Origin: an uncultured Pseudomonadota bacterium
Lineage (GTDB): Bacteria; Desulfobacterota; BSN033; UBA1163
Direction of reading: 5' to 3'
Length of the DNA: 38,412 nucleotides
Assembly: GCA_937124575.1 (NCBI GenBank)
Contig: CAKZKY010000295.1
Span: 1 to 38,412, forward strand
Each line of letters opens with the position of its first letter. Position 1 is the stretch's first letter. The position numbers and the translations under genes are program-made. The notes beneath the pieces were generated by a model. The model was given only the letters and a program-made list of their open reading frames with translations. It did not search any database and was not told the origin of the DNA. Shown in pieces: positions 8,691-24,166 of the stretch.

Positions 8691-10142
8691 TTACATCAAT
8701 CCTGCAATTGACTTCTGAGCAAAGGAGAGCACATTGGAGGGAAAGATTCCCATATAGAAGGTCCCGATCAGGGCAAGTATCAGAGCGATCACTGGCGCTG
8801 GTGAAAAGTCGAGACCCGTGATCTCCCGCTCCGATTCCCGGAAATACATGAACACGGTGACTCGCAGATAGTAATAGACGGAGATGGCACTATTGAGAAC
8901 GCCGAGAATGGCAAGCCAGTAATACTTTGCTTCCACAGCCGCACTGAAGACGTAGAGTTTAGCCATAAACCCACCCAGGGGCGGAATGCCCGCCATGGAG
9001 AGGAGGCAGATCGTCATCGAAGCGGCCAGAAGGGGATATTTGAAACCGACTCCGGCATAATCGGTGATCAGGGTGTTCTCTTCACCTTTTTTACCAAGCA
9101 GGATGACACAGGTGAATGCTCCCAGATTCATAAAAGCATAAGCCATGAGGTAAAAGAGCATGGCAGAAATTCCCAGTTTGTTGCCGGCAACAAAGGCAAC
9201 CAGAATATAGCCGGCATGGGCAATACTCGAATAGGCTAACATCCGTTTGATGTTGTTCTGGGAGATGGCAATGATATTTCCGACGGTCATGGTAGCCACA
9301 GCAATGAGCCACATGATCGAGGTCCAGTCTGGACGGAATTCTGGAAGCGCCATAAAAAAGACGCGGATTAAGGCTGCAAAACCTGCTGCCTTCACACCGG
9401 TTGCCATGAAGGCAGTGATGGATGTGGGAGCCCCCTCATAGACGTCAGGCGTCCACATATGGAATGGGACCGATGCGATTTTGAAACCAAAGCCGATCGT
9501 GAGCAGAGCCAAACTCAACAGAAGCATGGGAGAGTCAAGCAGTTTCTTATTGGCAATATAGGAAGCAATATCCTTGAGATAGAGAGAACCTGTAGCACCG
9601 TAAATCAAGGCAATGCCATACAAGAGAAAACCAGTAGCAAACGCACCCAGGAGGAAATATTTGAAGGCCGATTCCACGGAGCGTCGATCATCCCTCATCA
9701 TTCCTGCCAGGATATAAATGGCAATGGACATTGTCTCCAGTCCGAGGAAGATGATCAGCAGATGGGTCCCTCCTGTCATGAGCATCATCCCAAGTGCTGA
9801 GAAAAGGATGAGGGCATAATACTCTCCAAACGCAATCCCTTCCCTGGAGGCATACCCCATGGAGATCAGGACTGTCAGAAAAGCGATGATCAGGATCGTG
9901 ATCTTAAAGAAGATGGCAAACCCATCAGTGGTGAACATCCCTTCAAATCCTGTCTTGCCCGATCCGACCAGAGGAAGCGTATAGAAGAAGGCAATGACGA
10001 CACCGATCAGGCTAAGGATTCCGAGATATCCCTTTCTCTCCCCTTTGGGTGAAAAGACATCAACGAGAAGAACCAAAAACCCAAAGGCGGTGATGATGAT
10101 TTCTGGCGCAATGAGATAAAGATCAATTTCTGGCAGTTTCAT
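8691..10142 (-). CDS. nuoN: NADH-quinone oxidoreductase subunit N
   Basis: NuoN is one of three antiporter-like proton-translocating subunits of the complex I membrane arm. This 483-residue protein is almost wholly hydrophobic with about 14 helices. It keeps the conserved membrane glutamate in LGLETMSIAIYIL and the lysine-bearing FKIASVPFHMWTPDVYEGAP segment. It also shows AYSSIAHAGY and GIPPLGGFMAKLYVF. Length is normal. GGAGG lies seven bases before the ATG at 10142. It is the last gene of the operon, 112 bases after nuoM, with a terminator just beyond. Confidence 0.96.
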   Translation of the reverse strand: MKLPEIDLYLIAPEIIITAFGFLVLLVDVFSPKGERKGYLGILSLIGVVIAFFYTLPLVGSGKTGFEGMFTTDGFAIFFKITILIIAFLTVLISMGYASREGIAFGEYYALILFSALGMMLMTGGTHLLIIFLGLETMSIAIYILAGMMRDDRRSVESAFKYFLLGAFATGFLLYGIALIYGATGSLYLKDIASYIANKKLLDSPMLLLSLALLTIGFGFKIASVPFHMWTPDVYEGAPTSITAFMATGVKAAGFAALIRVFFMALPEFRPDWTSIMWLIAVATMTVGNIIAISQNNIKRMLAYSSIAHAGYILVAFVAGNKLGISAMLFYLMAYAFMNLGAFTCVILLGKKGEENTLITDYAGVGFKYPLLAASMTICLLSMAGIPPLGGFMAKLYVFSAAVEAKYYWLAILGVLNSAISVYYYLRVTVFMYFRESEREITGLDFSPAPVIALILALIGTFYMGIFPSNVLSFAQKSIAGLM

Positions 10143-10254: not shown

Positions 10255-11814
10255 TCATTTGACATTCTTACTTTCTATTTCCGCTACCATTTTCGTTGGA
10301 GCTGAAAAATCTGCTTTCATCTCCACTTTTGTCCTGAAGTCTTTCAGGAATTTCTCCACGCTTGCATCCATCTTGTTGAAGAAGAGCTTGGGGTAGATCC
10401 CCATAAGGAAGATCAGGGCGACCATAGGAATGAGCGTGATGACCTCCCGCGCATTGAGGTCCTTTAAACCCTCGTTCTTCGGATTGTTAATCTTTCCGAA
10501 CATCACCCGTTGAAACATCCAGAGCATATAGGCCGCACCCAGTATGACTCCGGTTGCCGCCAAAACACCATAGACGACATTGGATCGAAATGCTCCCAGG
10601 AGGATGAGAAACTCTCCCACGAATCCATTCGTTCCTGGAAGTCCGATGGAGGAAAGGGTGACAATCATAAAGAAGGTGGCAAAGACCGGCATCACCTTTG
10701 AGATGCCTCCAAAATCGGCGATCATCCGTGTGTGTCTCCGCTCATAGATCATTCCGACGATCAAGAAGAGCGATCCCGTGCTGATACCGTGGTTGAGCAT
10801 TTGATAGATCGAACCCTGAACGCCCTGTGTATTGAAGGCGAACATGCCTAACATGACGTAACCAAGATGGCTGACGCTCGAAAAGGCCACCAATCGTTTC
10901 AGGTCGGGTTGCATCATCGAGACCAGCGCTCCGTAAATGATTCCAATGAGCGCCAATACAGAGATCAAAGGCATCAGTTCGAGAGCCGCATTCGGGAATA
11001 GCGGAATGGCAAACCGGATGAATCCATAGGTTCCCATCTTGAGCAAGACGCCTGCCAGAATTACGCTTCCTGCAGTAGGCGCTTCGGTGTGGGCATCGGG
11101 CAACCAGGTATGGAATGGAAACATTGGCACCTTGATCGCAAAGGCCAGTGCAAAGGCTCCAAAGAGCCAGTATTGAGTGCCCAAAGGAATCCCCAGCTTA
11201 TAAAGCTCCATCACATCAAAGGTGGCCTTTCCAGTTGCCTTCGCATTGATGAAATAGAGCGCTAAAATGGCAACCAGCATGAGCACGCTTCCAGCCATGG
11301 TGAAGAGGAAGAACTTAATCGCTGCATAGATCCGCCTTGCCGGATTGCCCCAAACTCCAATGAGAAGGTACATCGGGATGAGCATCACTTCCCAGAAGAC
11401 ATAGAAGAGTACAAGGTCCAGCGCCACCAGTGCCCCAACCATTCCTGTCTCGAGAAAGAGGAAAGAGATCATATACTCTTTCACGCGGAAGGTGATCGCT
11501 GTCCAAGAACAGAGGATGCAGAGCACGGTCAAAAAGGTCGTCAGAAGCACGAGCAGAAGACTGATCCCATCGATCCCGAGTTTATAACTGATGCCATAGG
11601 CCTCGACCCACCACCAGTCCTCCATGAATTGCATGGCTGCCGAGGTGGAATCGAATTTAAAAAAGAGTGGCAGAGAAGCTATAAATTCAACCAGGGCAAA
11701 TGCCAGAGTTACCCTTCGGATCGTCTCCTCTTTCTTAATGAAGAGAAGTAGGATTGCACCGACCAGAGGGAAGAAGATGAGAAAGGATAGAATGGGAATT
11801 CCCAAGATGTCCAT
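10255..11814 (-). CDS. nuoM: NADH-quinone oxidoreductase subunit M
   Basis: NuoM is the middle antiporter-like subunit of complex I. The 519-residue product is highly hydrophobic. It keeps the key membrane glutamate in [20 protein letters not shown], the lysine segment [23 protein letters not shown], and [15 protein letters not shown] choose the ATG at 11814 (MDILGIP) because AAAGGAG lies eight bases upstream; the frame is open a further 14 codons but without a ribosome site. It follows nuoL by about 110 bases and precedes nuoN, the standard L-M-N order. Confidence 0.96.
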
Positions 11815-11924
11815 GGAATTAACTCCTTTTATTGAAACGACTATTGCGAATGACACCGAATAGGGCGAATGAGAAATTTATGAATATTCGTTTAATTCGT
11901 TCTCTTTCGTGTCATTCGGGTTAT

Positions 11925-13907
11925 TTAAAAGAATCCCCGGATGATATAGTAGATGACCAGGATCAGCCCTCCCAAAACGATGGAAAAGGCATAATTCTGA
12001 ACCAATCCTGTCTGCACCTTACGCATCACACCAGAGAGCCATCCGATCAAATAGGCAATTCCATTGACCGTTCCATCGATCACGAGATCATCGAAGCCCT
12101 TCCAGAGCCCCCTGCCAAGGTTTTTCAGAGAGTTGACAAAGAGCACCTGATAGAGTTCGTCCACATAATATTTATTCGAAACGAGTTGATAGAGCCCTCT
12201 CCATCTCTGCGCCAACATCTTAGGCAAGGCCGGATTTTTCAAATATAAGAAGTAAGCGATCCCGATCCCAATCAGGGCGATCACCACGGAGACAGCCATG
12301 AGCAGAAGCTCCAATGTCGCCGAGTGCTCTCCTCCAGCACCTGCTGCCCACGCCTCTTGGATCAGCGAAAAACTTGCATGGGCTTTGACAGGCGGCCCAT
12401 TGCCTACCACAGGTGCTAAAAATTCATGGATGTGATTGGCACCTCCTAAGACATGGGGAACACCCACATACCCTCCCACGATGGAGAGGAAAGCCAGAAC
12501 CATCAATGGGATTGTCATGATCTTTGGCGATTCATGGATATGGTGTGCCACATGATGGTCCACTCTTGATTCTCCAAAGAAGGCCATGAAGAGCGCCCGG
12601 AACATATAGAAGGCGGTCATGCCCGCAGCCACAGCAGCCACCAGCCAGAGCAGGAAATGGCCGCGTTGGCTGGAGAAGGCCATCCAGAGGATCTCATCCT
12701 TGCTGAAGAAGCCCGAAAGTCCGGGTATACCTGCAATCGCCAGGGTCGCAATGAAGAAGGTGACAAATGTGATGGGAATCTTCTTTCTCAATGCGCCCAT
12801 CTTCCGAATATCGAGCTCGCCGCTGAGCGCATGCATCACGCTCCCGGCGCCAAGAAAGAGGAGGCCTTTGAAGAAGGCATGGGTCATCAGGTGAAAGATC
12901 CCTGCGGCGTAAGCTCCCACACCGACTGCCAGAAACATATAACCCAACTGACTGATCGTCGAATAGGCCAGGATCTTCTTGATGTCGTACTGACAGAAGC
13001 CTATTGAGGCCGTAAAGATGGCGGTGGCACAGCCGACGATGGCAACCACGGCCATGGCAATGGGCGCCATGTTATAAAGGATGCTGCAACGGGCAACCAT
13101 GTAGACACCTGCTGTCACCATGGTGGCTGCATGGATCAGAGAGCTGACCGGTGTCGGACCCTCCATGGCATCGGGAAGCCAGACATAGAGAGGTATCTGT
13201 GCCGACTTTCCGCAGGCGCCGACAAAAAGCAGAAGCGCAATGGCCGTAGCGGTCGCCGTATCGAGTTTGCCGACATTGGCAAAGACCTCGGTAAAATCGA
13301 GCGTCCATATCCCATGCTGCCCTAAAGAGGTGAAGAGGAGAAACATCCCCAAGATGAAACCGAAATCACCAACCCGGTTGACGACAAAGGCCTTCTTTCC
13401 TGCATTGGATGCAGAATCCTTCTCATACCAGAAGCCAATCAGAAGATAGGAGCAGAGCCCAACGCCTTCCCACCCCACAAACATCAATAAGAAGTTGTTG
13501 GCCAGGACGAGGTTGAGCATCATGAAGACGAAGAGATTGAGATAAGTGAAATACCGGGTATAACCCGGATCATCATGCATGTATCCTACGGAGTAGATGT
13601 GAATGAAGAAGCTGACGCCAGTCACGACCAGGGCCATCAGGATGGAGAGGGGATCGATCTGATAACCGATCACGGTCTGAAAAGAACCAGAAACCACCCA
13701 GTCAAAGAGGACCTTTTCAAAGAGCCTTTCTCCAGGAGGTCTTTGGATCAGTTCAAAAAAGATGAGGATCGACGTGAGAAAGGAGAGTCCGATGGCCGAA
13801 GGGCCGACCACGCTGACCACACCCTTTCCCAGGCGCTTCCCTAAGAGCCCGTTGATCAAAAATCCGATAAATGGAAATAGAGGAATTAACCAAACATATT
13901 CAAGCAT
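11925..13907 (-). CDS. nuoL: NADH-quinone oxidoreductase subunit L
   Basis: NuoL is the distal antiporter-like subunit whose long lateral helix runs along the membrane arm of complex I. The 660-residue protein has the expected length. It contains FVGWEGVGLCSYLLIGFWYEK with the conserved glutamate, KSAQIPLYVWLPDAMEGPTPVSSLIHAATMVTAGVY, and AYSTISQLGYM. An amphipathic C-terminal region ends in a final membrane helix (about residues 640-658). The ATG at 13907 is preceded by AAAGGAG at six bases. It lies between nuoK and nuoM. Confidence 0.97.
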   Translation of the reverse strand: MLEYVWLIPLFPFIGFLINGLLGKRLGKGVVSVVGPSAIGLSFLTSILIFFELIQRPPGERLFEKVLFDWVVSGSFQTVIGYQIDPLSILMALVVTGVSFFIHIYSVGYMHDDPGYTRYFTYLNLFVFMMLNLVLANNFLLMFVGWEGVGLCSYLLIGFWYEKDSASNAGKKAFVVNRVGDFGFILGMFLLFTSLGQHGIWTLDFTEVFANVGKLDTATATAIALLLFVGACGKSAQIPLYVWLPDAMEGPTPVSSLIHAATMVTAGVYMVARCSILYNMAPIAMAVVAIVGCATAIFTASIGFCQYDIKKILAYSTISQLGYMFLAVGVGAYAAGIFHLMTHAFFKGLLFLGAGSVMHALSGELDIRKMGALRKKIPITFVTFFIATLAIAGIPGLSGFFSKDEILWMAFSSQRGHFLLWLVAAVAAGMTAFYMFRALFMAFFGESRVDHHVAHHIHESPKIMTIPLMVLAFLSIVGGYVGVPHVLGGANHIHEFLAPVVGNGPPVKAHASFSLIQEAWAAGAGGEHSATLELLLMAVSVVIALIGIGIAYFLYLKNPALPKMLAQRWRGLYQLVSNKYYVDELYQVLFVNSLKNLGRGLWKGFDDLVIDGTVNGIAYLIGWLSGVMRKVQTGLVQNYAFSIVLGGLILVIYYIIRGFF

Positions 13908-14004: not shown

Positions 14005-14322
14005 TTACCATTTCAGTAAATTGACTTCATCCACATTGATCGTCTCTCTGGAACGATAGAGCATGACAAAGATGGCCAACCCGACTGCCGCCTCTGCAGC
14101 AGCTACGGCCATAACGAAGAAAGCAAAGATTACCCCGTCCACCGATTGGAGAAAACGGGAGAGCGTGATGAAGGTCAGATTGACCGCATTGAGCATCAAC
14201 TCAATACACATAAAGACGACGATCGCATTGCGACGGGTTAGCGCTCCGATCACACCGATCGTGAAGAGTATCCCGCTTAACATGAGATAGAGGGCAGGGG
14301 GAATGGTTGGTACGACCCACAT
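14005..14322 (-). CDS. nuoK: NADH-quinone oxidoreductase subunit K
   Basis: NuoK is a small membrane subunit of complex I with three helices and conserved glutamates in the proton path. This 105-residue protein has the hallmark [14 protein letters not shown] segment, carrying the first glutamate, and [17 protein letters not shown] with the second. The ATG at 14322 has AAGGAG eight or nine bases upstream; a TTG six bases earlier is too close to that site. It begins 12 bases after nuoJ ends. Confidence 0.95.
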
Positions 14323-14334
14323 ATTCAATTCTCC

Positions 14335-14862
14335 TTATGTCCTTTTCTTGCTTAAAATCACGGCGCCGATGATGGCGGCAACCAGAAGGATCGAGACGAT
14401 CTCAAAAGGAAAGAGATAGGTTGTAAAAAGACTCTCGCCTACCGTCTTCACGTTGGTACCCATCTTTTCAGGCGTATAGGAACCGGTCTGGCCGGTCGGC
14501 GACTTTGCCACAGCTACATAGAGGAGGCCTATGAGGAAAAGGACCGCCAGAAATCCTCCGATCACCTTGGAATAGACGATCTTCAGTTTCGAGCGAAGCT
14601 CTGTCTCCAGATCGAGGAGCATGATGACGAAGACGATGAGCATCACAATGGCTCCTGCATAGACGATGACCTGGATGATGGCAATAAATGGGTTGTGAAG
14701 CAGGATATAGAGCACAGCCACGCAGAGTAAGGTCAACACCATGAAGAGCGCGCTGTGAATCGGATTTTTTCGGGTGATGACCAGAATGGAGGCCACAATC
14801 GAGACAAAGGCCATCCCCATAAAGAGCAACCACTGAAAGAGGATCCCAAAATTTTCAGCCAT
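14335..14862 (-). CDS. nuoJ: NADH-quinone oxidoreductase subunit J
   Basis: NuoJ is a five-helix membrane subunit of complex I, next to NuoK and NuoH. The 175-residue product shows NPIHSALFMVLTLLCVAVLYILL and the very conserved IQVIVYAGAIVMLIVFVIMLL segment, which contains the pi-bulge helix that changes during turnover. A last helix (about 150-170) carries VSILLVAAIIGAVILSKK. GGAG lies seven bases upstream of the ATG. It lies between nuoI and nuoK in standard order. Confidence 0.95.
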   Translation of the reverse strand: MAENFGILFQWLLFMGMAFVSIVASILVITRKNPIHSALFMVLTLLCVAVLYILLHNPFIAIIQVIVYAGAIVMLIVFVIMLLDLETELRSKLKIVYSKVIGGFLAVLFLIGLLYVAVAKSPTGQTGSYTPEKMGTNVKTVGESLFTTYLFPFEIVSILLVAAIIGAVILSKKRT

Positions 14863-14977: not shown

Positions 14978-15391
14978 TTATGGATTATACTTCTTCTGAT
15001 CTAACAGCTTCTCCGTGTTCATGAGAAAGGGTGCCCTTTCCCGAGCCACCCATTCATAATTCTTTCCCACAAAGATGGCATTGACTGGACAGGCCTCTTC
15101 ACAATACCCGCAGAAGATGCACCTCAAGGCGTCCAGCTCATAGGTGAGGGGATAACGTCTTCCCTGTTCATTCTCTGCCGTCACAATCGAGATACACTGG
15201 GAAGGGCAGACCGCCATGCAGAGGCCACAGGCCACACACTTCAGCTGGCCCTTCTCATCCTTTTCAAAATACTGGATCCCCCTCCAGCGTTTTGCAGGAG
15301 GCACCTTCTGCTCGGGATACTGAATGGTAATCGGCCTGGAGAAGAACCGACCCAAAGTAAATGCCAAACCTTTAAGTAGTGGGACGATCAT
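14978..15391 (-). CDS. nuoI: NADH-quinone oxidoreductase subunit I (2x[4Fe-4S])
   Basis: NuoI is a peripheral-arm subunit holding clusters N6a and N6b, which pass electrons to N2 in NuoB. This 137-residue protein has an N-terminal amphipathic segment and two ferredoxin motifs, CVACGLCMAVCPSQC and CIFCGYCEEACPVNA (about residues 52-66 and 91-105). The second motif also supplies the return cysteine to the other cluster in the usual way. The ATG at 15391 has GGAAGGGG upstream. It is placed between nuoH and nuoJ as normal. Confidence 0.95.
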   Translation of the reverse strand: MIVPLLKGLAFTLGRFFSRPITIQYPEQKVPPAKRWRGIQYFEKDEKGQLKCVACGLCMAVCPSQCISIVTAENEQGRRYPLTYELDALRCIFCGYCEEACPVNAIFVGKNYEWVARERAPFLMNTEKLLDQKKYNP

Positions 15392-15469: not shown

Positions 15470-16489
15470 CTATCCCTTCAATGAGACGACCAGCGCGGTG
15501 ATTAAAAGATTGATCAGCGCCAGCGGAAAGAGAATCTTCCACCCAAACTTCATAATCTGATCGTACCGCAACCTCGGAAAGGTCCCTCTCTGCCAGATGA
15601 AGAAGAAGCAGAAGATGAAGAGCTTACCGCAGAACCAGACGATCCCTGGAATAAAATCGAGCTGTGGCAGAGGAGCCTGCCATCCACCCCAGAAGAGCGT
15701 TACGGCCACCGCACCCATGGTGATCATATGGGCATATTCCGCCATGAAGAAGAGAGCAAACTTCATACTGCTATATTCGATATTAAACCCGCAGGCAAGC
15801 TCCGATTCGGACTCCGGCATATCAAATGGAGTCCGGTTGATCTCTGCGAGACCACAGATGATGTAGAGAATGAAAGCGACAGGTTGATACCAGATGTTCC
15901 AGTTCCAGAACCCGCCAGCCTGCTGGTTGATGATGTCCGTCAGCCTCAGGCTCTGCGAGAGAATAATCACACCGATAATGGTGATCCCAAGCGCCACCTC
16001 GTAACTGATCATCTGAGCGGCTGCACGAAGGGAACCGGTCAGCCCATACTTATTGCCTGAAGACCAGCCTCCGAGCACAATTCCAAATTCCCCCAGTGAG
16101 GCAACCCCGAAGATATAGAGAAGCCCAATATCGACATCTGCAATCCGGAGTTTGACCACCCAATCGGTTCCCGGAATTTTAAACTCATTTCCAAAGGGGA
16201 TGACTGCAAAGAGGGCAATGGCCGAGATGATGGCAATCATCGGTGAAAGAACAAAGACTGCTTTGTCTGCCTTACCAGGAACCAGATCTTCTTTGAAAAA
16301 AGCCTTAATGCCATCCGAGAAGGGCTGAAGGAGTCCAAACGGACCACACCGATTGGGACCAAAACGGATCTGGATGTGGCCCAAGACCTTCCGCTCTAAC
16401 CAGGTCAGATAGGCCACGGAGAGCATCAGACACGCAAAGACCACCACACACTTTACAATCGCCTCAATGAGAAGGTATAAGACCTGCAT
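15470..16489 (-). CDS. nuoH: NADH-quinone oxidoreductase subunit H
   Basis: NuoH forms the quinone tunnel at the junction of the membrane and peripheral arms. The 339-residue protein has eight or nine helices and the family signatures WLERKVLGHIQIRFGPNRCGP (residues about 30-50), FKEDLVP, the SGNKYGLTGSLRAAAQMISYE loop lining the quinone channel, and AEINRTPFDMPESESELACGFNIEYS. GAGGAG is seven bases before the ATG. It follows the NuoF/GltD fusion gene after a 250-base spacer. Confidence 0.96.
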   Translation of the reverse strand: MQVLYLLIEAIVKCVVVFACLMLSVAYLTWLERKVLGHIQIRFGPNRCGPFGLLQPFSDGIKAFFKEDLVPGKADKAVFVLSPMIAIISAIALFAVIPFGNEFKIPGTDWVVKLRIADVDIGLLYIFGVASLGEFGIVLGGWSSGNKYGLTGSLRAAAQMISYEVALGITIIGVIILSQSLRLTDIINQQAGGFWNWNIWYQPVAFILYIICGLAEINRTPFDMPESESELACGFNIEYSSMKFALFFMAEYAHMITMGAVAVTLFWGGWQAPLPQLDFIPGIVWFCGKLFIFCFFFIWQRGTFPRLRYDQIMKFGWKILFPLALINLLITALVVSLKG

Positions 16490-16739: not shown

Positions 16740-18692
16740 TTATACCGCAAACAACCCAACCCGAACGCACCTGAGACAGCGTTCTGCCTCCTTCTGTGCA
16801 ACCGGGATAGGAAATCCCTTCTCCACTTCGTCAAAAGTCCACTTTCTCGAATCGGGAGGAAGCATCTCCAGCATGGCCCGTTTCCTTCCGCCAGGAACAC
16901 CGATCCTCTCATCTCTATTGTAGACCTTGATCTTCTCCATCAGTGTCTCCAGACGTTCCTCCTCCGACTCTCTGACTTCCACCCCTCTGAGAAACGCATC
17001 AATTTTATCAGCCGCCCTTCTTCCGTGGGCCGCGGCGCGAACAAGGACATCCGGTCCAATCACACAATCGCCTCCGGAGAAAATCCCTTCTCGGTTCGTC
17101 TGGAAGGTTCCCTCTTTTACAGAGATCGTGGAACGTTTGGTCGTCTTCACTCCGTCTTTCTCATCAAGAAAGGAGAGGTCGATCGCCTGGCCAATGGCAG
17201 GGATGACGATATCCGCTTCGATGAAGAATTCCGATCCTTTGATCGGAACTGGTCTTCGCCTTCCGCTCTCGTCTGGTTCGCCGAGCTCCATCCGGATACA
17301 TTCCATCCCGACCACTTTTCCATCCTTCTCGACGATCCGTACTGGATTGCAGAGGTAGTGAAACTTCACGCCCTCCTCTTCGGCGTCGTGGATCTCCACC
17401 CGGTCCGCAGGCATCTCCTTCTTCGTCCGGCGATAGACCAGGTTCACATCGGGCTTGCCAATTCGGAAGGACGAACGAACACAGTCAATGGCCACATTGC
17501 CTCCACCCACAACCACCACCCTCTTTCCCTCGGGGTAGGGATCTCTTCCAAGATTGATTTCAAGGAGGTAGTAGACCCCTGGGATAAATCCTTTATATCC
17601 CTTGTCCTCTCCCTCCACACCCATGGGCGTATTGGTCTGGGCACCCACAGCAATATAGATGGCTTTAAAACCCTGCTCGAACATCTGGGAAAGGGTTATA
17701 TCCTTTCCCACCTGCGTGTTATATCGGATCTCAACCCCAAGCTGTTGAACCAGACCGGCCTCGTATCTCAATATCTCTCTCGGAAGCCTGTAGTCTGGAA
17801 TTCCAACAGCAGCCATGCCTCCGGGCTCGCCCAATCTCTCAAAAATCGTGACAGAGTAACCCTTCAAAGCCAGATAATAGGCACAGGTCAGCCCAGAGGG
17901 TCCAGCTCCGATGATCGCTACCTTTTCAGAACGGGCAGAGGTTTTAACCAGGTCGGGTTTGATCTCTCTTTCCAGTTCATAATCTGCCACAAATCGCTTG
18001 AGCCATTTGATGGAGACGCATTCGTCCACATTCTGACGTCTGCAATTGTCCTCACAGGGCCGAATGCAGACCCTTCCAAGCACACCTGCCAAACAGGTCG
18101 CCTCCCGTATGGTTGAAAGAGCCTCCAGATACCTGCCTTCCTTGATCAGCTCCACATAGTGGGTAATCGGAAGGTGGGAAGGACAGGCGCTCTCACAGGG
18201 AGCGGTTACCTTCACTTTGTACTCTTCACGCGGAATCCTCTTCTTGGACTGAATCGCTTCGATGAACTCTTCCCTGAAATATGCGATGGCATGGAGCACA
18301 GGCTTGGGTCCGGTCTGTCCAAGGTTACATTTCGAACTCCTTAAGATCATCTCGCCTAAGAACTTCAGCTGTTCCAGATCCCCCGCTCTTCCTTCTCCTC
18401 CCGCAATCCGGTTGAGAATCGATGACATAATTTGAGTTCCTACCCGACAGGGGGTGCACTTCCCGCACGATTCCTTCTGGACGGCTTCCATATAGGCACG
18501 AATCAGGTCAACGATATTGACTTCAGGATCCCGAACGGCAATCCCGTCCCAACCGATGAAGGCCTTGATCTTCTTCTCCTGATCGAATTCAAGGGGAAGA
18601 TTGAGATTGGAGATGGACTGTCTCTCTCCTTCGGGTTTCCCCCGATTATCCACAATTGCCCCACCCCAACTGCTAAAAAGGATATCTGTCAT
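16740..18692 (-). CDS. NuoF C-terminal domain fused to GltD-type FAD/NAD(P)H oxidoreductase (SfrB-like)
   Basis: The 650-residue protein has an unusual composite layout. Residues about 40-140 match the C-terminal [4Fe-4S] domain of NuoF (cluster N3), with Cys76, Cys79, Cys82 and Cys122. The FMN/NADH-binding part of NuoF is absent. Residues about 160-245 form the cysteine-rich helical domain of glutamate synthase small subunit and dihydropyrimidine dehydrogenase. A GltD-type FAD domain follows (GAGPSG at 262-267), then an NAD(P)H domain (GGGNVAIDCVR, then VYRRTKKEMPA, whose arginines favour NADPH). FSGGDCVIGPDVLVRAAAHGRRAAD closes the FAD site. This matches the plan of Geobacter SfrB. I use the ATG at 18692 because GAGGG lies six or seven bases upstream. 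Its place between nuoD and nuoH suggests it is the NAD(P)H module of this complex I. Confidence 0.88.
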   Translation of the reverse strand: MTDILFSSWGGAIVDNRGKPEGERQSISNLNLPLEFDQEKKIKAFIGWDGIAVRDPEVNIVDLIRAYMEAVQKESCGKCTPCRVGTQIMSSILNRIAGGEGRAGDLEQLKFLGEMILRSSKCNLGQTGPKPVLHAIAYFREEFIEAIQSKKRIPREEYKVKVTAPCESACPSHLPITHYVELIKEGRYLEALSTIREATCLAGVLGRVCIRPCEDNCRRQNVDECVSIKWLKRFVADYELEREIKPDLVKTSARSEKVAIIGAGPSGLTCAYYLALKGYSVTIFERLGEPGGMAAVGIPDYRLPREILRYEAGLVQQLGVEIRYNTQVGKDITLSQMFEQGFKAIYIAVGAQTNTPMGVEGEDKGYKGFIPGVYYLLEINLGRDPYPEGKRVVVVGGGNVAIDCVRSSFRIGKPDVNLVYRRTKKEMPADRVEIHDAEEEGVKFHYLCNPVRIVEKDGKVVGMECIRMELGEPDESGRRRPVPIKGSEFFIEADIVIPAIGQAIDLSFLDEKDGVKTTKRSTISVKEGTFQTNREGIFSGGDCVIGPDVLVRAAAHGRRAADKIDAFLRGVEVRESEEERLETLMEKIKVYNRDERIGVPGGRKRAMLEMLPPDSRKWTFDEVEKGFPIPVAQKEAERCLRCVRVGLFAV

Positions 18693-18872: not shown

Positions 18873-20045
18873 TTACCGATCGATCTCACCCAACACAATA
18901 TCAATACTTCCGATGGTGGCGATGACATCGGCAATCAGACTTCCCTCAATCATCTTGGGAAGCGCGCTTAAGTTGAGGAAAGAGGGAGGTCGGATTCTCA
19001 TCCTCAAAGGTTTATTCGAACCATCGCTCACAAGATAGAAACCCAATTCCCCTTTGGCAGCTTCGACACTTGCATAGACTTCCCCTTTGGGTGGCTGGAA
19101 CCCTTCGGATGCAATCTTGAATTGCCGAATCAAAGAGGCGATATCGGTCAGGACCATCTCTTTGGGAGGCAGAACCACCCTGGGATCATCAGCGAGAATC
19201 GGGCCTTTGGGCAAACGGTCCAGGGCCTGTCTCACAATGGCATTTGACCACTCCATCTCCCTCAACCGGACATAGTACCGATCGTAGACATCGCCTACTG
19301 TCCCTGTGGGAATGTCGAATTCGAAATCCTCATAACTCGAATAGGGAAAAACTTTCCTCACATCCCACTTTACTCCGGATCCACGAAGCGTCGGCCCGGT
19401 CACACCCCAATTGATGGCATCTTCTTTCGAAATGATTCCCACTTCCTTGGTCCGTTTCAACCAGATCACATTCTTTGTCAGAAGCGTCTCATACTCCTTC
19501 ATGTGGCCTGGAAAGGCGTCAACAAAATCCTTGATCTTTTTGTCGATCCCTTCTGGAAGGTCTTTAGCAACCCCTCCGATTCTCAAATAGGTTGGGGTCA
19601 ATCTTCCGCCGGCCACCTCTTCGAAGATCCTGAGAATATCCTCCCTTTCACGGAAATTATAGAAGAGCAGGGTCATTGCGCCGATGTCGAGCGCATGGGT
19701 TCCAAGCCAGATGAGATGTGCCGCAAGCCTCTGGAGTTCAGCCATCATCACTCTCAGGTATTGAGCCCGTTTCGGGACCTCAATGCCAAGAAGTTTTTCA
19801 ACGGCCAGGACATAGGCCAGGTTATTCCCCATCGCATTGGTGTAATCTAACCGATCCGTGAGGGGAATGACCTGATGATAGGTTCTGGACTCAGCTAATT
19901 TCTCAACCCCCCGATGGAGGTGTCCGATGTGGGGAGTTGCTTTAACAATAATTTCTCCATCCAGTTCCAATACAAGCCTCAACACCCCATGTGTGGCCGG
20001 GTGCTGGGGACCCATATTGATGGTCATGAATCGTGTCTCTGCCAT
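18873..20045 (-). CDS. nuoD: NADH-quinone oxidoreductase subunit D
   Basis: NuoD, the 49-kDa subunit, helps form the quinone-binding site near cluster N2 and derives from the large subunit of [NiFe] hydrogenases. The 390-residue protein contains NMGPQHPATHGVLRLVLELDGE with the quinone-site histidine, HIGHLHRGVEKLAE, and RLDYTNAMGNN. A C-terminal segment ends in IASIGSIDIVLGEIDR, split here as DVIATIGSIDIVLGEIDR. I start it at ATG 20045 (MAETRF), one base after the nuoC stop and behind GAGG. Earlier in-frame starts would lie inside nuoC. Confidence 0.96.
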   Translation of the reverse strand: MAETRFMTINMGPQHPATHGVLRLVLELDGEIIVKATPHIGHLHRGVEKLAESRTYHQVIPLTDRLDYTNAMGNNLAYVLAVEKLLGIEVPKRAQYLRVMMAELQRLAAHLIWLGTHALDIGAMTLLFYNFREREDILRIFEEVAGGRLTPTYLRIGGVAKDLPEGIDKKIKDFVDAFPGHMKEYETLLTKNVIWLKRTKEVGIISKEDAINWGVTGPTLRGSGVKWDVRKVFPYSSYEDFEFDIPTGTVGDVYDRYYVRLREMEWSNAIVRQALDRLPKGPILADDPRVVLPPKEMVLTDIASLIRQFKIASEGFQPPKGEVYASVEAAKGELGFYLVSDGSNKPLRMRIRPPSFLNLSALPKMIEGSLIADVIATIGSIDIVLGEIDR

Positions 20046-20046
20046 T

Positions 20047-20535
20047 TCAGACCTCGGGGACAAAAGGTTTGTCAAAATCCGGTCCTTCGACCGGGAAATC
20101 TTTCCTCAGGGGGTGTCCTTCATAACCATCCCAGAGGAGGATTCTCCTCAAATCGGGATGATTCTCAAAGGTGATTCCATAAAGATCGTAAACCTCCCTC
20201 TCAAGCCAGTTCGCTGCCTTCCAGATCGATTCGACACTGGGCATCGACTCGCCCTCTCCGATCTTCGTCTTCAATCTCAATCGACTGTTCGATTTGAAGG
20301 AGTAGAGGAGATAGACCACTTCAAATCGGGGTACCTGTGGGAAATAGTCAACCCCGCAGAGATCGGTCAACATATGGTACTGGAGATCGGGTTCCGCATA
20401 GAGAAATCGACAAATCTCAAAGAGATCCTTCTTCGGTACCGTAATATTGACTTCACCCCGAAAGGTTGTCACCTCCAAGATCGAAGCGGGAAATTTTGCT
20501 TCCAACTTTTTAACTGCTGGATGAACTTCTGCCAT
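20047..20535 (-). CDS. nuoC: NADH-quinone oxidoreductase subunit C
   Basis: NuoC, the 30-kDa subunit, is a structural part of the peripheral arm next to NuoD. The 162-residue product carries the signature WLEREVYDLYGITFENHPDLRRILL (split over residues about 112-136) and ends with GHPLRKDFPVEG. It is a stand-alone NuoC, not fused to NuoD. It starts one base after the nuoB stop and ends one base before nuoD, so the B-C-D genes are tightly packed. Confidence 0.95.
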   Translation of the reverse strand: MAEVHPAVKKLEAKFPASILEVTTFRGEVNITVPKKDLFEICRFLYAEPDLQYHMLTDLCGVDYFPQVPRFEVVYLLYSFKSNSRLRLKTKIGEGESMPSVESIWKAANWLEREVYDLYGITFENHPDLRRILLWDGYEGHPLRKDFPVEGPDFDKPFVPEV

Positions 20536-20536
20536 A

Positions 20537-21058
20537 TCAATCTATCCTTTCCACAATCTCTTCTGGGATCAGCCGAACATTCTTTCGATCGGCAAGGGTT
20601 TCTGTCTCAATCTTCTTCTGGAGTTCAACGATTGCTGTAAGGAGTGTCTCTGGCCTCGGCGGACAGCCCGGTACATAGACATCTACTGGAATCATCTGAT
20701 CCACACCCTGAACCACATTGTAGGTCTTAAAAATTCCTCCTGAACAGGCGCAGGCCCCATAGGCAATGACCCACTTGGGTTCTGGCATCTGTTCATAGAT
20801 GCGTTTGACCATGGGCGCCATCTTCTTGGTCAGGGTGCCTGCCACAATCATCAGATCTGCCTGCCGTGGAGATGGCCTGAAGACCTCGGAACCAAATCGC
20901 GAAATATCCCACGTCGCCGAACTGGTGACGATCATCTCCAGCGCGCATCAGGCAAGACCGAAGGTGACCGGCCAGATCGAATACTTTCGGCCCCAGTTGA
21001 CCACTTTATCCAGTACAGGCATCAAGGGGGTTTTTTCAAGGTAGGTTTCTATTCCCAT
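20537..21058 (-). CDS. nuoB: NADH-quinone oxidoreductase subunit B with in-frame UGA at an N2-ligand position
   Basis: NuoB holds cluster N2, the last iron-sulfur centre before quinone. Read through, the 173-residue protein is a complete Nuo[18 protein letters not shown], then the N2 site, then [41 protein letters not shown] (Cys103) and VPGCPPRPE (Cys132). Codon 37 (20948-20950) is TGA, where NuoB proteins have the first Cys of the invariant tandem pair; Cys38 follows directly. The frame is continuous on both sides. The ATG at 21058 overlaps nuoA by 10 bases and has AAAGGAG at seven bases. An ATG at 20935 lies after the UGA but would lose the N2 pair. Selenocysteine, nonsense mutation and sequence error are all possible. 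Confidence 0.87.
20912..20930 (-). promoter_or_regulatory. possible SECIS-like hairpin downstream of the nuoB UGA
   Basis: On the minus strand CGTCACC-AGTTC-GGCGACG can form a seven-pair stem with one A-C mismatch and the loop AGUUC. It begins 17 bases after the UGA, and its loop begins 24 bases after, within the range known for bacterial SECIS elements; the loop holds a GU. A short stem like this can occur by chance, so it is only suggestive. Confidence 0.3.
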
Positions 21059-21405
21059 TCGAGTGCTCCTTTTTTCCAAATATAGATATAGGCAATGATC
21101 AAAATCCCAATAAATACGGCCATCGAAACAAAGCCAAACATCTTCAAATCTTTGAAGATGACGGCCCATGGATAGAGAAAGACGATTTCAATATCGAAGA
21201 TCAGAAAGAGCAAGGCAATGATATAGTATTTGATCGGGATCCTCCGAAAGGAAGAACCATAGGTCGTCATGCCACACTCGTAAGGTGCCTCTTTAAGCAG
21301 TGTCTGCTTTCTCTGGCCTAAGAGATAAGAGGCGAGAATGGCAAAGCAGGCAAAGATGACGGCTATGGCAAAATAGAAAAGGATGGGAAGATAATCCATT
21401 AACAT
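21049..21405 (-). CDS. nuoA: NADH-quinone oxidoreductase subunit A
   Basis: NuoA is a three-helix membrane subunit near the quinone entrance. The 118-residue protein shows KEAPYECGMTTYGSSFRRIPIKYY (split over residues about 38-61), the conserved loop with the cysteine that reports the active or deactive state, and ALLFLIFDIEIVFLYPWA with its acidic membrane residues. The ATG at 21405 has AGAGGG seven bases upstream. It follows fdhA by 88 bases on the same strand and overlaps nuoB by 10. Confidence 0.95.
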   Translation of the reverse strand: MLMDYLPILFYFAIAVIFACFAILASYLLGQRKQTLLKEAPYECGMTTYGSSFRRIPIKYYIIALLFLIFDIEIVFLYPWAVIFKDLKMFGFVSMAVFIGILIIAYIYIWKKGALEWE

Positions 21406-21493: not shown

Positions 21494-24166
21494 CTATCCC
21501 CCATATTTCTCAACCCGCACGGTTGAATATTTAAGATCCGGGATCTTCGACTCTGGATCAAGCACCGTATTCGTAAGAAGATTGACCGGTGCCTCGCTAA
21601 AGTGAAACTTTGCAAAGACCACACCTCTTCCAACCCTATCGGTAACCTTCGCTTTTGAAATGAAATCGCCTCTACGGCTGACCACCCTTATCCGATCACC
21701 CTCTTTGATTCCAAGTTGGGTTGCATCGGATGGGTTTATTTCCACGAGGCTTTCAGGAGACATCTCGTTGAGAAGTCTGACTTTACGGGTCATACTGCCC
21801 GCATGATAATGGTAGTAGTCCCGACCTGTGCTTAAGATGAACGGATACTCCTGATCCGGAACCTCGGGTGGAGGAGTGAAATCCACCGGAACAAAGAGCC
21901 CTTTTCCTCGAACGATTTTGCCTCTATGAAGGATCGGTGTTCCGGGATGATCCTCCGTTGGGCACGGCCACTGCAGGCCACCAGATTCCAATCTGGCATA
22001 GGTGATGCCTGCGTACTGAGGCGTGACTTTCCGAATCTCTTCGAAGATGGCTTCAGGACCTTCATAATCCATGGAGTAACCCAATCTCCTCGAGATTTCA
22101 GAGATGATCTTCCAATCTGGCATCGCTCCTTTCGGTCCCTCGACAACCTTTCTCACCCTTTGAACCCTTCTCTCAGTGTTCACAAAGGTTCCGTCCTTCT
22201 CGAGGAAGCAGAGAGAGGGCAAGACAACGTGGGCCATCTGTCCGGTCTCTGTTAAAAAGATGTCCTGGACCACAAGAAGTTCCAGCCCAGCATAGGCCTT
22301 CTTAAGATGGGATAGGTCAGGATCTGTTACCATGGGATTTTCGCCCATGATGTAGAGGGCTTTGATCTTTCCATCCAGGGCCGCCTTGCTCATCTCCACG
22401 ACCGTCAAACCCGGCTTTCCTGAAAGAGAGACACCCCATTGGCTTTCGAATTTATCCTGCAACTCTCTTACGGCCACGCTCTGATATCCAGGATAGACCG
22501 TGGGCAGACAACCCATGTCACAGGCGCCCTGGACATTGTTCTGACCTCTCAGTGGGTTGACACCACTTCCGGGTCTTCCCACCTGACCGCAGAGAAGGGC
22601 CAGATTGGAAATCGCCTTTACCCCATCTGTTCCAGAAGAGTGTTGGGTAATGCCCATGCAGTAAAGAATGGCCGCATTTTTAGCGGAACCATATATCCGA
22701 GCGGCCTTAATCAACTTCTCTTTGGGAATGCCGGTCACTTGTTCCACAAACTCTGGCGTATACCGGGCGACCTTCTCTTTGACCGCTTCAAAGCCTTCTG
22801 TATTCTGTTCGATAAAGGATTTATTATAAAGGTTTTCTCTGATGATGATGTGGGCCAACCCATTTAACCAGGCAATATCATCTCCAGGCTTGGGTTGAAG
22901 CCAGAGGGTGGCTTCCTCAACCAGATCGATCTTTCTCGGATCAACGACAATGATCTTCGCCCCATTGAAACGGGAACGATGCCTCAAGAGCATCCCGATG
23001 ACCGGATGGGTCTCTGTGGTGTTGCTCCCGGTAACCAACAAGACATCGGCCTGCTGAAAATCAGCAAGAGAATTGGTCATGGCTCCAGAGCCGAGGGTGG
23101 TGGCCAGACCGACCACTGTACTGGAGTGTCAGAGACGGGCGCAATGGTCGATATTGTTCGTGCCGATGGCCGCCCTGATCAACTTCTGGAAGAGATAGTT
23201 CTCCTCGCATGTGGCGCGCGCCGAGGCGAGGCCAGCAATACTGTCAGGTCCATACTTCTCTTTAATGGCCTTGAGTTTGTCAGAGACAAAGCTTAAAGCT
23301 TCGTCCCAGCTCACCTCTCGGAATGAGCCATTTTCTCGGATCAGAGGCATGTGAAGTCGATCTGGGCTGTTCACAAATTCAAATCCGAACCGTCCTTTCA
23401 CGCAGAGCACGCCGTTATTGGTTCCGAGCCCTTCTTTGGTGGTAATCTTAAACACCCGGTTACCTACCGCGTTCACTTCCAGGGAACAACCCACTCCGCA
23501 ATAGCCGCATACTGTGGTCACCCTTTTAGCCTGCCACTTCCTTCCTTTGATGGGGCTCACATTTTCAGTCAACGCTCCCACAGGACAGGCTGCGAGACAT
23601 TCGCCGCAGGAGATACATCGTTCGGGTTTGATCGGCTCAACTCTGGCATTAAAACCGGTTCCCTGAAGATCGAGGACTTCTCTGCCAGCAATCTCTCGGC
23701 AGGCACGGATACAACGGCTGCAGAGGATGCAGCGATTGGGATGGTACTTGATCGCAGGTGTGGAATAGGTCTTGTACTCTTTGGCAGGTGTCTCCACCTG
23801 ATACTCGGCTTTTTGAATCCCATACTCATAAACATAATCCTGAAGATCGCATTCACCACCTTTATCACAGACCGGGCAATCAAGAGGGTGATTTACCAGC
23901 ATGAACTGGAGGACTTCTCTTCGAATCTCCCGAATCTTCGGGGTGTCGGTTTCGATCACCATGCCATCTGTGGCTGGAGTGTTACAAGCAGTGACAGGGT
24001 TTTCGAGATCTTTAACCTCAACCACACACATCCTGCAGAAACCTGTGGGAATAAGGCTCTCCATGTGGCACAGCGTTGGTATTCGGAAACCGTTCTGCTG
24101 AGCAATGCTCAGTATTGTAGCTCCCTCCTCCGCCTCAATAGCTCTGCCATTGATTGTAACTCTCAT
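21494..24166 (-). CDS. fdhA: selenocysteine-containing formate dehydrogenase alpha subunit (NuoG/FdhA type)
   Basis: Read through one UGA, this is an 890-residue molybdopterin oxidoreductase. Domains in order: [2Fe-2S] ferredoxin (residues 1-80), the NuoG His-Cys cluster motif HPLDCPVCDKGGEC, two [4Fe-4S] motifs (CILCSRCIRACR and CISCGECLAACP), a further [4Fe-4S] site CGYCGVGC, the bis-MGD catalytic domains, and the C-terminal dinucleotide-binding domain. UGA 346 (23129-23131) lies in CARL-U-HSSTV, the active-site context of E. coli FdhF. The Cys paralogue in this window reads CARLCHASTV. It oxidises formate or, in reverse, reduces CO2, and passes electrons to its clusters. AGGAG precedes the ATG at 24166. 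As first gene of the nuo operon it probably replaces NuoG. Confidence 0.92.
23100..23116 (-). promoter_or_regulatory. bacterial SECIS element of fdhA
   Basis: On the minus strand GTGGTC-GGTCT-GGCCAC forms a six-pair stem (one G-U) that starts 12 bases after the UGA. The word GGTCTG begins 18 bases after the UGA, the same word and spacing as in the E. coli fdhF SECIS, where the apical GU binds SelB. Confidence 0.8.
23129..23131 (-). other. UGA selenocysteine codon of fdhA
   Basis: TGA lies in frame between CARL and HSSTV at the position of the active-site Sec140 of E. coli FdhF. The reading frame continues for 544 codons beyond it with full family similarity. A SECIS-like hairpin follows. Confidence 0.9.

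Follow-up and report, generated by a model that had tools for sequence, protein, structure and literature searches.

The closest described relatives of the protein studied here, a short fusion that we call F'-GltD, are found in the StnABC/NfnABC complexes (StnABC of Sporomusa ovata, 8oh5; Caldicellulosiruptor, 9bov; Thermococcus sibiricus, 9n5u), which share with it a GltD unit with FAD and a lysine cluster ligand, as well as a NuoF-type N3 domain. In those complexes, however, GltD is fused to a NuoG-type subunit and NuoF keeps its FMN/NADH fold, whereas the locus described below joins GltD to a NuoF without FMN, inside a complex I operon. The 14-subunit NADH-type complex I has NuoABCDHIJKLMN, an N3-bearing NuoF domain, and NuoG-type clusters in common with this locus, which differs from it in that it shows no NuoE, no FMN-bearing NuoF, a GltD flavin, a selenocysteine (Sec) formate dehydrogenase (FDH) at the NuoG position, and a UGA codon in NuoB. 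The NAD-dependent formate dehydrogenase FdsABG of Rhodobacter capsulatus (6tg9) has an α subunit that matches residues 2 to 886 of the NuoG-position protein, FdhG, and a β subunit whose end resembles the N3 domain; in contrast to FdsABG, our locus has no FMN/NADH β subunit, and the complex I membrane arm is present. A GltD-type NADPH subunit with an FDH/NuoG-type partner, as here, is also described in the available text on SfrAB and on the NADPH-dependent FDH of M. thermoacetica (SfrB2, SfrA2, FdhF3; PMC13040438, PMC7483475), but these are soluble. Finally, long NuoF-GltD fusions (L044, L045, and L056) carry N3 and GltD in one chain as F'-GltD does, yet they keep the FMN/NADH fold and are not linked to nuo genes in the loci read. 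The pieces are thus known (StnC, NuoF, FdsA), while neither their combination in a complex I operon nor a Sec-containing NuoB was described in the open-access literature searched, as far as its available text goes.

Gene order and domain architecture of F'-GltD

The window, by which we mean the whole stretch of DNA analysed, is a single 38.4-kb contig (C295) of a 3.43-Mb MAG (529 contigs, 97% complete, 5% contamination). On its minus strand, an FDH/NuoG-type gene is followed by nuoA, nuoB, nuoC, nuoD, the F'-GltD gene, and nuoH, I, J, K, L, M, and N (Table 1), so that all of NuoA, B, C, D, H, I, J, K, L, M, and N are encoded in the window, NuoB being whole only with read-through of its TGA. 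Gaps of 180 and 250 bp separate F'-GltD from its neighbors, and the coding strand of the window has no other gene-sized open reading frame (ORF) from nuoD to nuoH, so that no NuoE is seen there. A promoter and terminator scan of the window came out near chance (10 found against 10.4 expected and 12 against 11.4), and no operon break can be argued from it; an Rfam search of the window at the gathering score returned no match.

Table 1. Features of the complex I locus (positions in the window)
Feature	Position	Strand	Details and basis
FdhG, NuoG/FdsA-like formate dehydrogenase alpha subunit	21494..24166	-	890 aa, in-frame TGA (Sec346) at 23131-23129
NuoA	21049..21405	-	position and conserved order
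NuoB	20537..21058	-	in-frame TGA 20950-20948; plain ORF calling shows only 20537..20935
SECIS-like hairpin after NuoB UGA	20901..20938	-	loop AGTTC, 25 nt downstream; comparative evidence
NuoC	20047..20535	-	position and conserved order
NuoD	18873..20075	-	TIGR01962 570 bits, cut-off 459
F'-GltD, NuoF C-terminal (N3) domain + Stn-type GltD module	16740..18692	-	650 aa; profiles, PDB matches, model, alignment
F'-GltD aa 1-162, NuoF-like N3 domain	18207..18692	-	ligands C76 C79 C82 C122
F'-GltD aa 163-650	16740..18206	-	Fer4_20 (C166 C170 C209 C213 C217), K232, FAD + NAD(P) Rossmann folds, C639 C642
NuoH	15470..16489	-	position and conserved order
NuoI	14978..15391	-	TIGR01971 138 bits, cut-off 113
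NuoJ	14335..14862	-	position and conserved order
NuoK	14005..14328	-	position and conserved order
NuoL	11925..13907	-	Pfam Proton_antipo_M + Proton_antipo_N
NuoM	10255..11856	-	Pfam
NuoN	8691..10142	-	Pfam

The F'-GltD ORF, with an ATG at 18692 and a TAA at 16742-16740, is correctly delimited. Pfam places NADH_4Fe-4S (PF10589) at residues 62 to 145 (E = 5e-27), Fer4_20 at 163 to 243 (E = 7e-21), and Pyr_redox_2 at 257 to 557 (E = 1e-30). PF01512, the FMN/NADH fold of NuoF, is not among the 12 Pfam families matched, and the ORF is too short to house this fold. In phmmer searches against the PDB, StnB/HydB chains of NuoF type match residues 18 to 163 with their C-terminal part, GltD-type chains match residues 140 to 647, and about 45 residues from the end of the NuoF flavin domain (residues 18 to 61) are retained as well. 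Structural matches of the whole model (Foldseek, VIA) covered the GltD part only, with NfnABC/StnC superposing on residues 161 to 650 (Z 36, rmsd 2.9 to 3.0 Å over 466 to 469 residues), and hence the N3 part was folded and searched separately. The AlphaFold model of residues 1 to 162 alone reached a pLDDT of 89.8, and all 50 matches listed for it are C-terminal halves of NuoF/HydB/StnB-type subunits (best Z 17.8). The first-pass annotation had described the protein as the iron-sulfur end of NuoF, with the four-cysteine N3-type site kept and the FMN/NADH fold missing, joined to a FAD/NAD(P)H module of GltD type. Pfam, phmmer, and the structure matches bear this out, and the gene does lie inside a complex I operon. 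The NCBIfam model NF009454 (PRK12814, putative NADPH-dependent glutamate synthase small subunit) scores 464.7 bits, under its equivalog cut-off of 916.

The same genome holds a second short NuoF-GltD fusion (contig C76, L021:10156-12108, minus strand; 45% identity) with no nuo genes, in a cluster that by our own reading of product names resembles corrinoid methyltransferase and activator genes. An ORF of GltD type on contig C6 (4345-5577, L013) contains a single in-frame TGA and is possibly another selenoprotein.

Conserved ligands and the choice of nucleotide

F'-GltD is a conserved protein and not a chance ORF: it recurs at E ≤ 1e-170 in 30 of 59 relatives, including all 17 genomes of the host's family. 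Among the 25 aligned F'-GltD rows, the four N3 cysteines are invariant (25/25), in keeping with the earlier suggestion that the retained NuoF part is a wiring piece. Equally invariant (25/25) are all seven cysteines of the GltD clusters (five in Fer4_20 and two C-terminal), K232, R302, YRR (residues 420 to 422), M427, and both nucleotide motifs, with P428 present in 24 of 25 rows. Seven cysteines and one lysine would be what two [4Fe-4S] clusters require.

In the phmmer PDB alignment, K232 falls on K170 of StnC, and the stretch YRRT..EMPA is likewise found in StnC. According to the available text of PMC10482914, StnC K170 ligates the cluster next to an NADPH-oxidising, non-bifurcating FAD, and NfnB has a glutamate at this place. 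By this rule, the glutamate of NfnB is absent from F'-GltD and the lysine is present in 25 of 25 rows, suggesting that the GltD module is of the StnC kind and feeds electrons one by one; the FMN-bearing NuoF-type StnB of a StnABC-type complex, on the other hand, is absent. Close relatives of F'-GltD are parts of bifurcating complexes, and one could imagine a Stn/Nfn-like flavin that splits electrons between ferredoxin and complex I. We regard such bifurcation as very improbable, since the FMN domain of StnB/HydB is missing, the window shows no NuoE, and K232 is the StnC-type lysine in place of the glutamate of NfnB, whose FAD bifurcates.

The nearest solved chains, StnC/NfnABC, are NADPH-linked, and StnC shares YRRT..EMPA with F'-GltD; for these reasons we consider NADPH the preferred nucleotide. 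The same complex might instead take NADH through its GltD module, the flavin fold having changed and the nucleotide not. Which nucleotide is used does not follow from the GltD fold by itself, and E. coli PreT is a GltD-fold enzyme that uses NADH; still, the NADPH-linked neighbors and the kept YRRT..EMPA stretch make this reading improbable.

Occurrence and origin of the short module

The relatives at 81 to 87% identity (among L023 to L034) come from MAGs of Deltaproteobacteria, Thermodesulfobacteriota, and Syntrophaceae, and further ones at 43 to 51% identity from Bacillota MAGs, Desulfacinum infernum, and others. In all 39 distinct nuo-linked loci with nuoD on the contig, F'-GltD is the very next gene after nuoD (44 loci read, less L127 and L128, which repeat L032 and L024, L146 and L147, which are not nuo-linked, and L026, which has no nuoD). 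Most nuo-linked loci then have a NuoG-type gene and nuoHIJKLMN, which puts F'-GltD at the place of nuoEFG; L106 has no G gene beside it. Whole-genome searches for nuo-linked F'-GltD and for the NuoB variant described below covered one phylum. Among 148 sampled genomes of this phylum, 49 have a match at E ≤ 1e-150, 41 of these in the short form, and 25 of the 41 within 6 kb of a NuoB match; with three more recognized by contig reading (G133, G160, and G158), F'-GltD sits inside nuo clusters in at least 28 of the 148. No nuo genes were seen at five other short-form loci read (G027, G036, G041, G060, and G127), and the locus reading left aside the short-form genomes G046, G067, G073, G083, G095, G098, G117, G144, and G159.

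In a careful tree of the GltD part (60 rows, root not inferred), the 40 short forms fall together (support 95/76; 98/93 for 38 of them), and the FMN-bearing long forms branch outside all of them. The 26 nuo-linked rows lie in a 29-row group (97/93) alongside three short forms without nuo genes. Short forms from Bacillota and Desulfacinum, which also have no nuo genes, fall outside the nuo clade. The position of both the short non-nuo forms and the long FMN forms favors recruitment of an already shortened module, and a single entry of such a module into complex I would be the simplest reading of this unrooted tree. The FMN fold had initially been called lost; its absence stands, but the tree speaks for recruitment over a loss inside complex I. 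The long fusions (about 1,050 aa) consist, by our own reading of the N terminus, of a thioredoxin-like domain followed by a complete NuoF and GltD in one chain.

The partner subunit at the NuoG position

All four residues of the Mo/W site are present in FdhG (K257, TGA346 for Sec, H347, and R540), the set of E. coli FdhF, and on these residues FdhG is assigned as a selenocysteine formate dehydrogenase at the NuoG position. It also carries the NuoG-type clusters N1b, N5, and N7 and two ferredoxin-type clusters, FdA and FdB, all named by their motifs. The idea of a simple swap from NADH to NADPH at the entrance of complex I does not survive this finding, as the partner at the NuoG position has an intact Sec formate dehydrogenase site. 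Nor is a NuoE seen. The window encodes a second NuoG-type FDH alpha subunit (35361-38306, minus strand; Cys for Sec, 48% identical to FdhG), which adjoins an MFS transporter gene and has no beta subunit beside it.

The FDH set is intact in 16 of the 35 nuo-linked G subunits examined (15 with Sec and one with Cys at position 346) and half lost in one (L138, which keeps Cys, Lys, and Arg and misses His). It is lost in the other 18, none of which has Sec/Cys plus His (0/18); Arg is gone in all 17 where the position is visible, a lone Cys is still aligned in L104, L123, L135, and L145, and a lone His in L102. The ligands of N1b, N5, FdA, and N7 are nevertheless kept in 35 of 35, and FdB is intact in 33 of 35 (L135 and L145 have one Asp for Cys); FdB is absent from the one canonical NuoG control (L129) but kept in FDH-dead G subunits.

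These counts bear on the possibility that complex I here has 11 subunits and receives its electrons from ferredoxin or some other carrier, F'-GltD and FdhG being a soluble NAD(P)-dependent formate dehydrogenase of their own that is only transcribed together with it. F'-GltD does adjoin a Sec FdhG without nuo genes in three loci (L040 from Desulfacinum infernum, L041, and L111); the two can thus act as an enzyme apart from complex I, which counts against an input role there. FdhG is a full-length match to FdsA of a soluble NAD-dependent FDH (6tg9_A), and an SfrB-type beta subunit is part of the NADPH-dependent Fdh of M. thermoacetica (available text of PMC13040438). In 18 of 35 nuo-linked loci, however, the G partner has no FDH set, and F'-GltD, G, and the cluster ligands are still kept in the nuo operon at the nuoEFG position despite this loss. 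We therefore consider a separate soluble enzyme unlikely. In those 18 loci, with the FDH set lost and F'-GltD constant, it should be the GltD input that matters.

In a tree of G subunits (47 rows, quick method with a long-branch warning, partial rows L109 and L144 dropped), the window's genus is represented by eight G subunits, which cluster with FDH-active ones of another family (f39, support 100) and apart from the FDH-dead G of the family to which the genus belongs. It appears from this tree that the FDH-dead G of the family was displaced in the window's genus by an FDH-active G of another lineage, set upstream of nuoA, which suggests that the two kinds of G are exchangeable parts of one machine. 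As no other G remains in the operon after this displacement, FdhG should serve as NuoG. In another genome whose complex I G subunit is FDH-dead, the region upstream of nuoA (L031:602-7023) encodes an HdrA-like protein with one in-frame TGA, an FlpD/MvhD with two, an Fe-S protein, and a Sec FdhA.

An in-frame UGA in NuoB

The in-frame TGA of NuoB sits exactly at the first of the tandem cysteines (motif GLA-U-CALEM), a position occupied by Cys in homologues. These tandem cysteines bind cluster N2. A whole-genome scan found the UGA-NuoB pattern in 35 of 395 genomes of the phylum, with the reversed control in none of those listed. Of 18 fetched, one was not NuoB, seven were F'-GltD clusters or a contig ending in nuoD (L193), and ten were nuo clusters without F'-GltD. 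The ten (L179 to L188) belong to families f30, f67, f75, and f80. Confinement of UGA-NuoB to F'-GltD clusters, as seen in 11 of 11 cases in the 148-genome sample, is refuted by these 10 of 18 loci.

The mean energy of the best SECIS-like hairpin is -11.2 kcal/mol for 33 distinct UGA sites and -4.2 for 20 Cys sites, after the range allowed for loop position and stem length had been widened following a first try (narrower range, 18 UGA and 11 Cys sites, two-sided p 0.0015). Family means are -11.0 for 10 UGA families and -3.6 for 14 Cys families (one-sided p 7e-5). At 18 UGA sites, three of five covariation measures of the hairpin exceed every one of 500 shuffles and the other two do not, a signal that kinship can also produce; at eight Cys sites the covariation does not stand out. 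Folding of single sequences gave no unusual stability for the UGA region of either NuoB (z 0.09) or FdhG (z -0.33). Four families (f1, f12, f26, and f44) hold both Sec and Cys NuoB, and on a NuoD tree (54 rows chosen partly for UGA; quick method with a long-branch warning) the Sec/Cys label needs 12 changes, at least seven of them forced by supported branches. The host genome has Sec machinery (two SelB over the cut-off and two tRNA-Sec over the gathering score), and the window's NuoB is its only NuoB match. Taken together, NuoB here is probably a selenoprotein, and from its position the Sec would ligate N2. The available text of a selenoproteome review of 2026 (PMC13188914) contains no occurrence of NuoB or PF01058, its entry "NADH:ubiquinone oxidoreductase" being PF02508, subunit E.

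Proposed electron input and its implications

Our preferred reading, to which we give a probability of roughly 60%, is that electrons enter a complex I without NuoE and without an FMN-bearing NuoF through F'-GltD as its input subunit, from NAD(P)H over the clusters to quinone. A nicotinamide nucleotide, most likely NADPH, would reduce the FAD of the GltD module, from where electrons would travel singly across the two [4Fe-4S] clusters (seven cysteines and Lys232) to the retained N3 or straight into the clusters at the NuoG position. The usual chain would then lead to N2 and quinone, with protons pumped by the membrane arm. The proximal cluster of FdhG (N7 position) would join the same wire and let formate enter there, giving the window's genus two cytosolic substrate sites, one for NAD(P)H and one for formate. 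Such a complex would likely be reversible, in that quinol and proton-motive force could yield NADPH or formate. The sequences show the domain make-up, the ligands, the conserved order of the genes, and the active-site residues of the FDH; from these we infer the use of NADPH over NADH, physical assembly, electron path, direction, and quinone as acceptor. In the host genome, CODH/ACS is present, dsrA has no match above the cut-off, MqnA/PF02621 has none, and MenA-like TIGR00751 has two, both below the cut-off. The NuoF N3 domain has eight matches there, six of them in ORFs of 597 to 685 aa on contigs other than the window's and C76; these NuoF-type ORFs could supply a classical input and speak against the preferred reading. 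So do the place of FdhG ahead of nuoA, the gaps on either side of F'-GltD, the 529 contigs and 5% contamination of the MAG, and, as regards quinone, the lack of MqnA and of MenA-like matches above the cut-off.

Judged by its sequence, F'-GltD would work like a complex I input module, yet by the comparisons with StnABC, NfnB, and complex I it belongs neither to the Stn family nor to the NADH-type 14-subunit complex I; it is probably a one-flavin NAD(P)H port, with NADPH the probable nucleotide, that feeds complex I via N3. More tentatively, and with somewhat less than even confidence, a complex I with an NADPH port (Stn-type GltD flavin), a formate port (Sec NuoG), and a Sec-ligated N2 could run both ways in energy-limited anaerobes.

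Which donor feeds electrons to an anaerobe's complex I that lacks NuoEFG is an open question according to the available text of PMC11238625, and a defined candidate donor module now lies in the operon itself, in the sampled genomes of one phylum counted above. If NADPH is used, the driving force per two electrons shifts by about 17 kJ/mol, by our own arithmetic from cell potentials of -280 and -370 mV (available text of PMC10482914). The presence of FDH-active and FDH-dead NuoG in one operon family is a natural record of the NuoG fold losing or changing a catalytic role, and Sec at N2, the quinone-reducing cluster, with its repeated switching between Sec and Cys, would amount to an experiment of nature on the step at which complex I couples.
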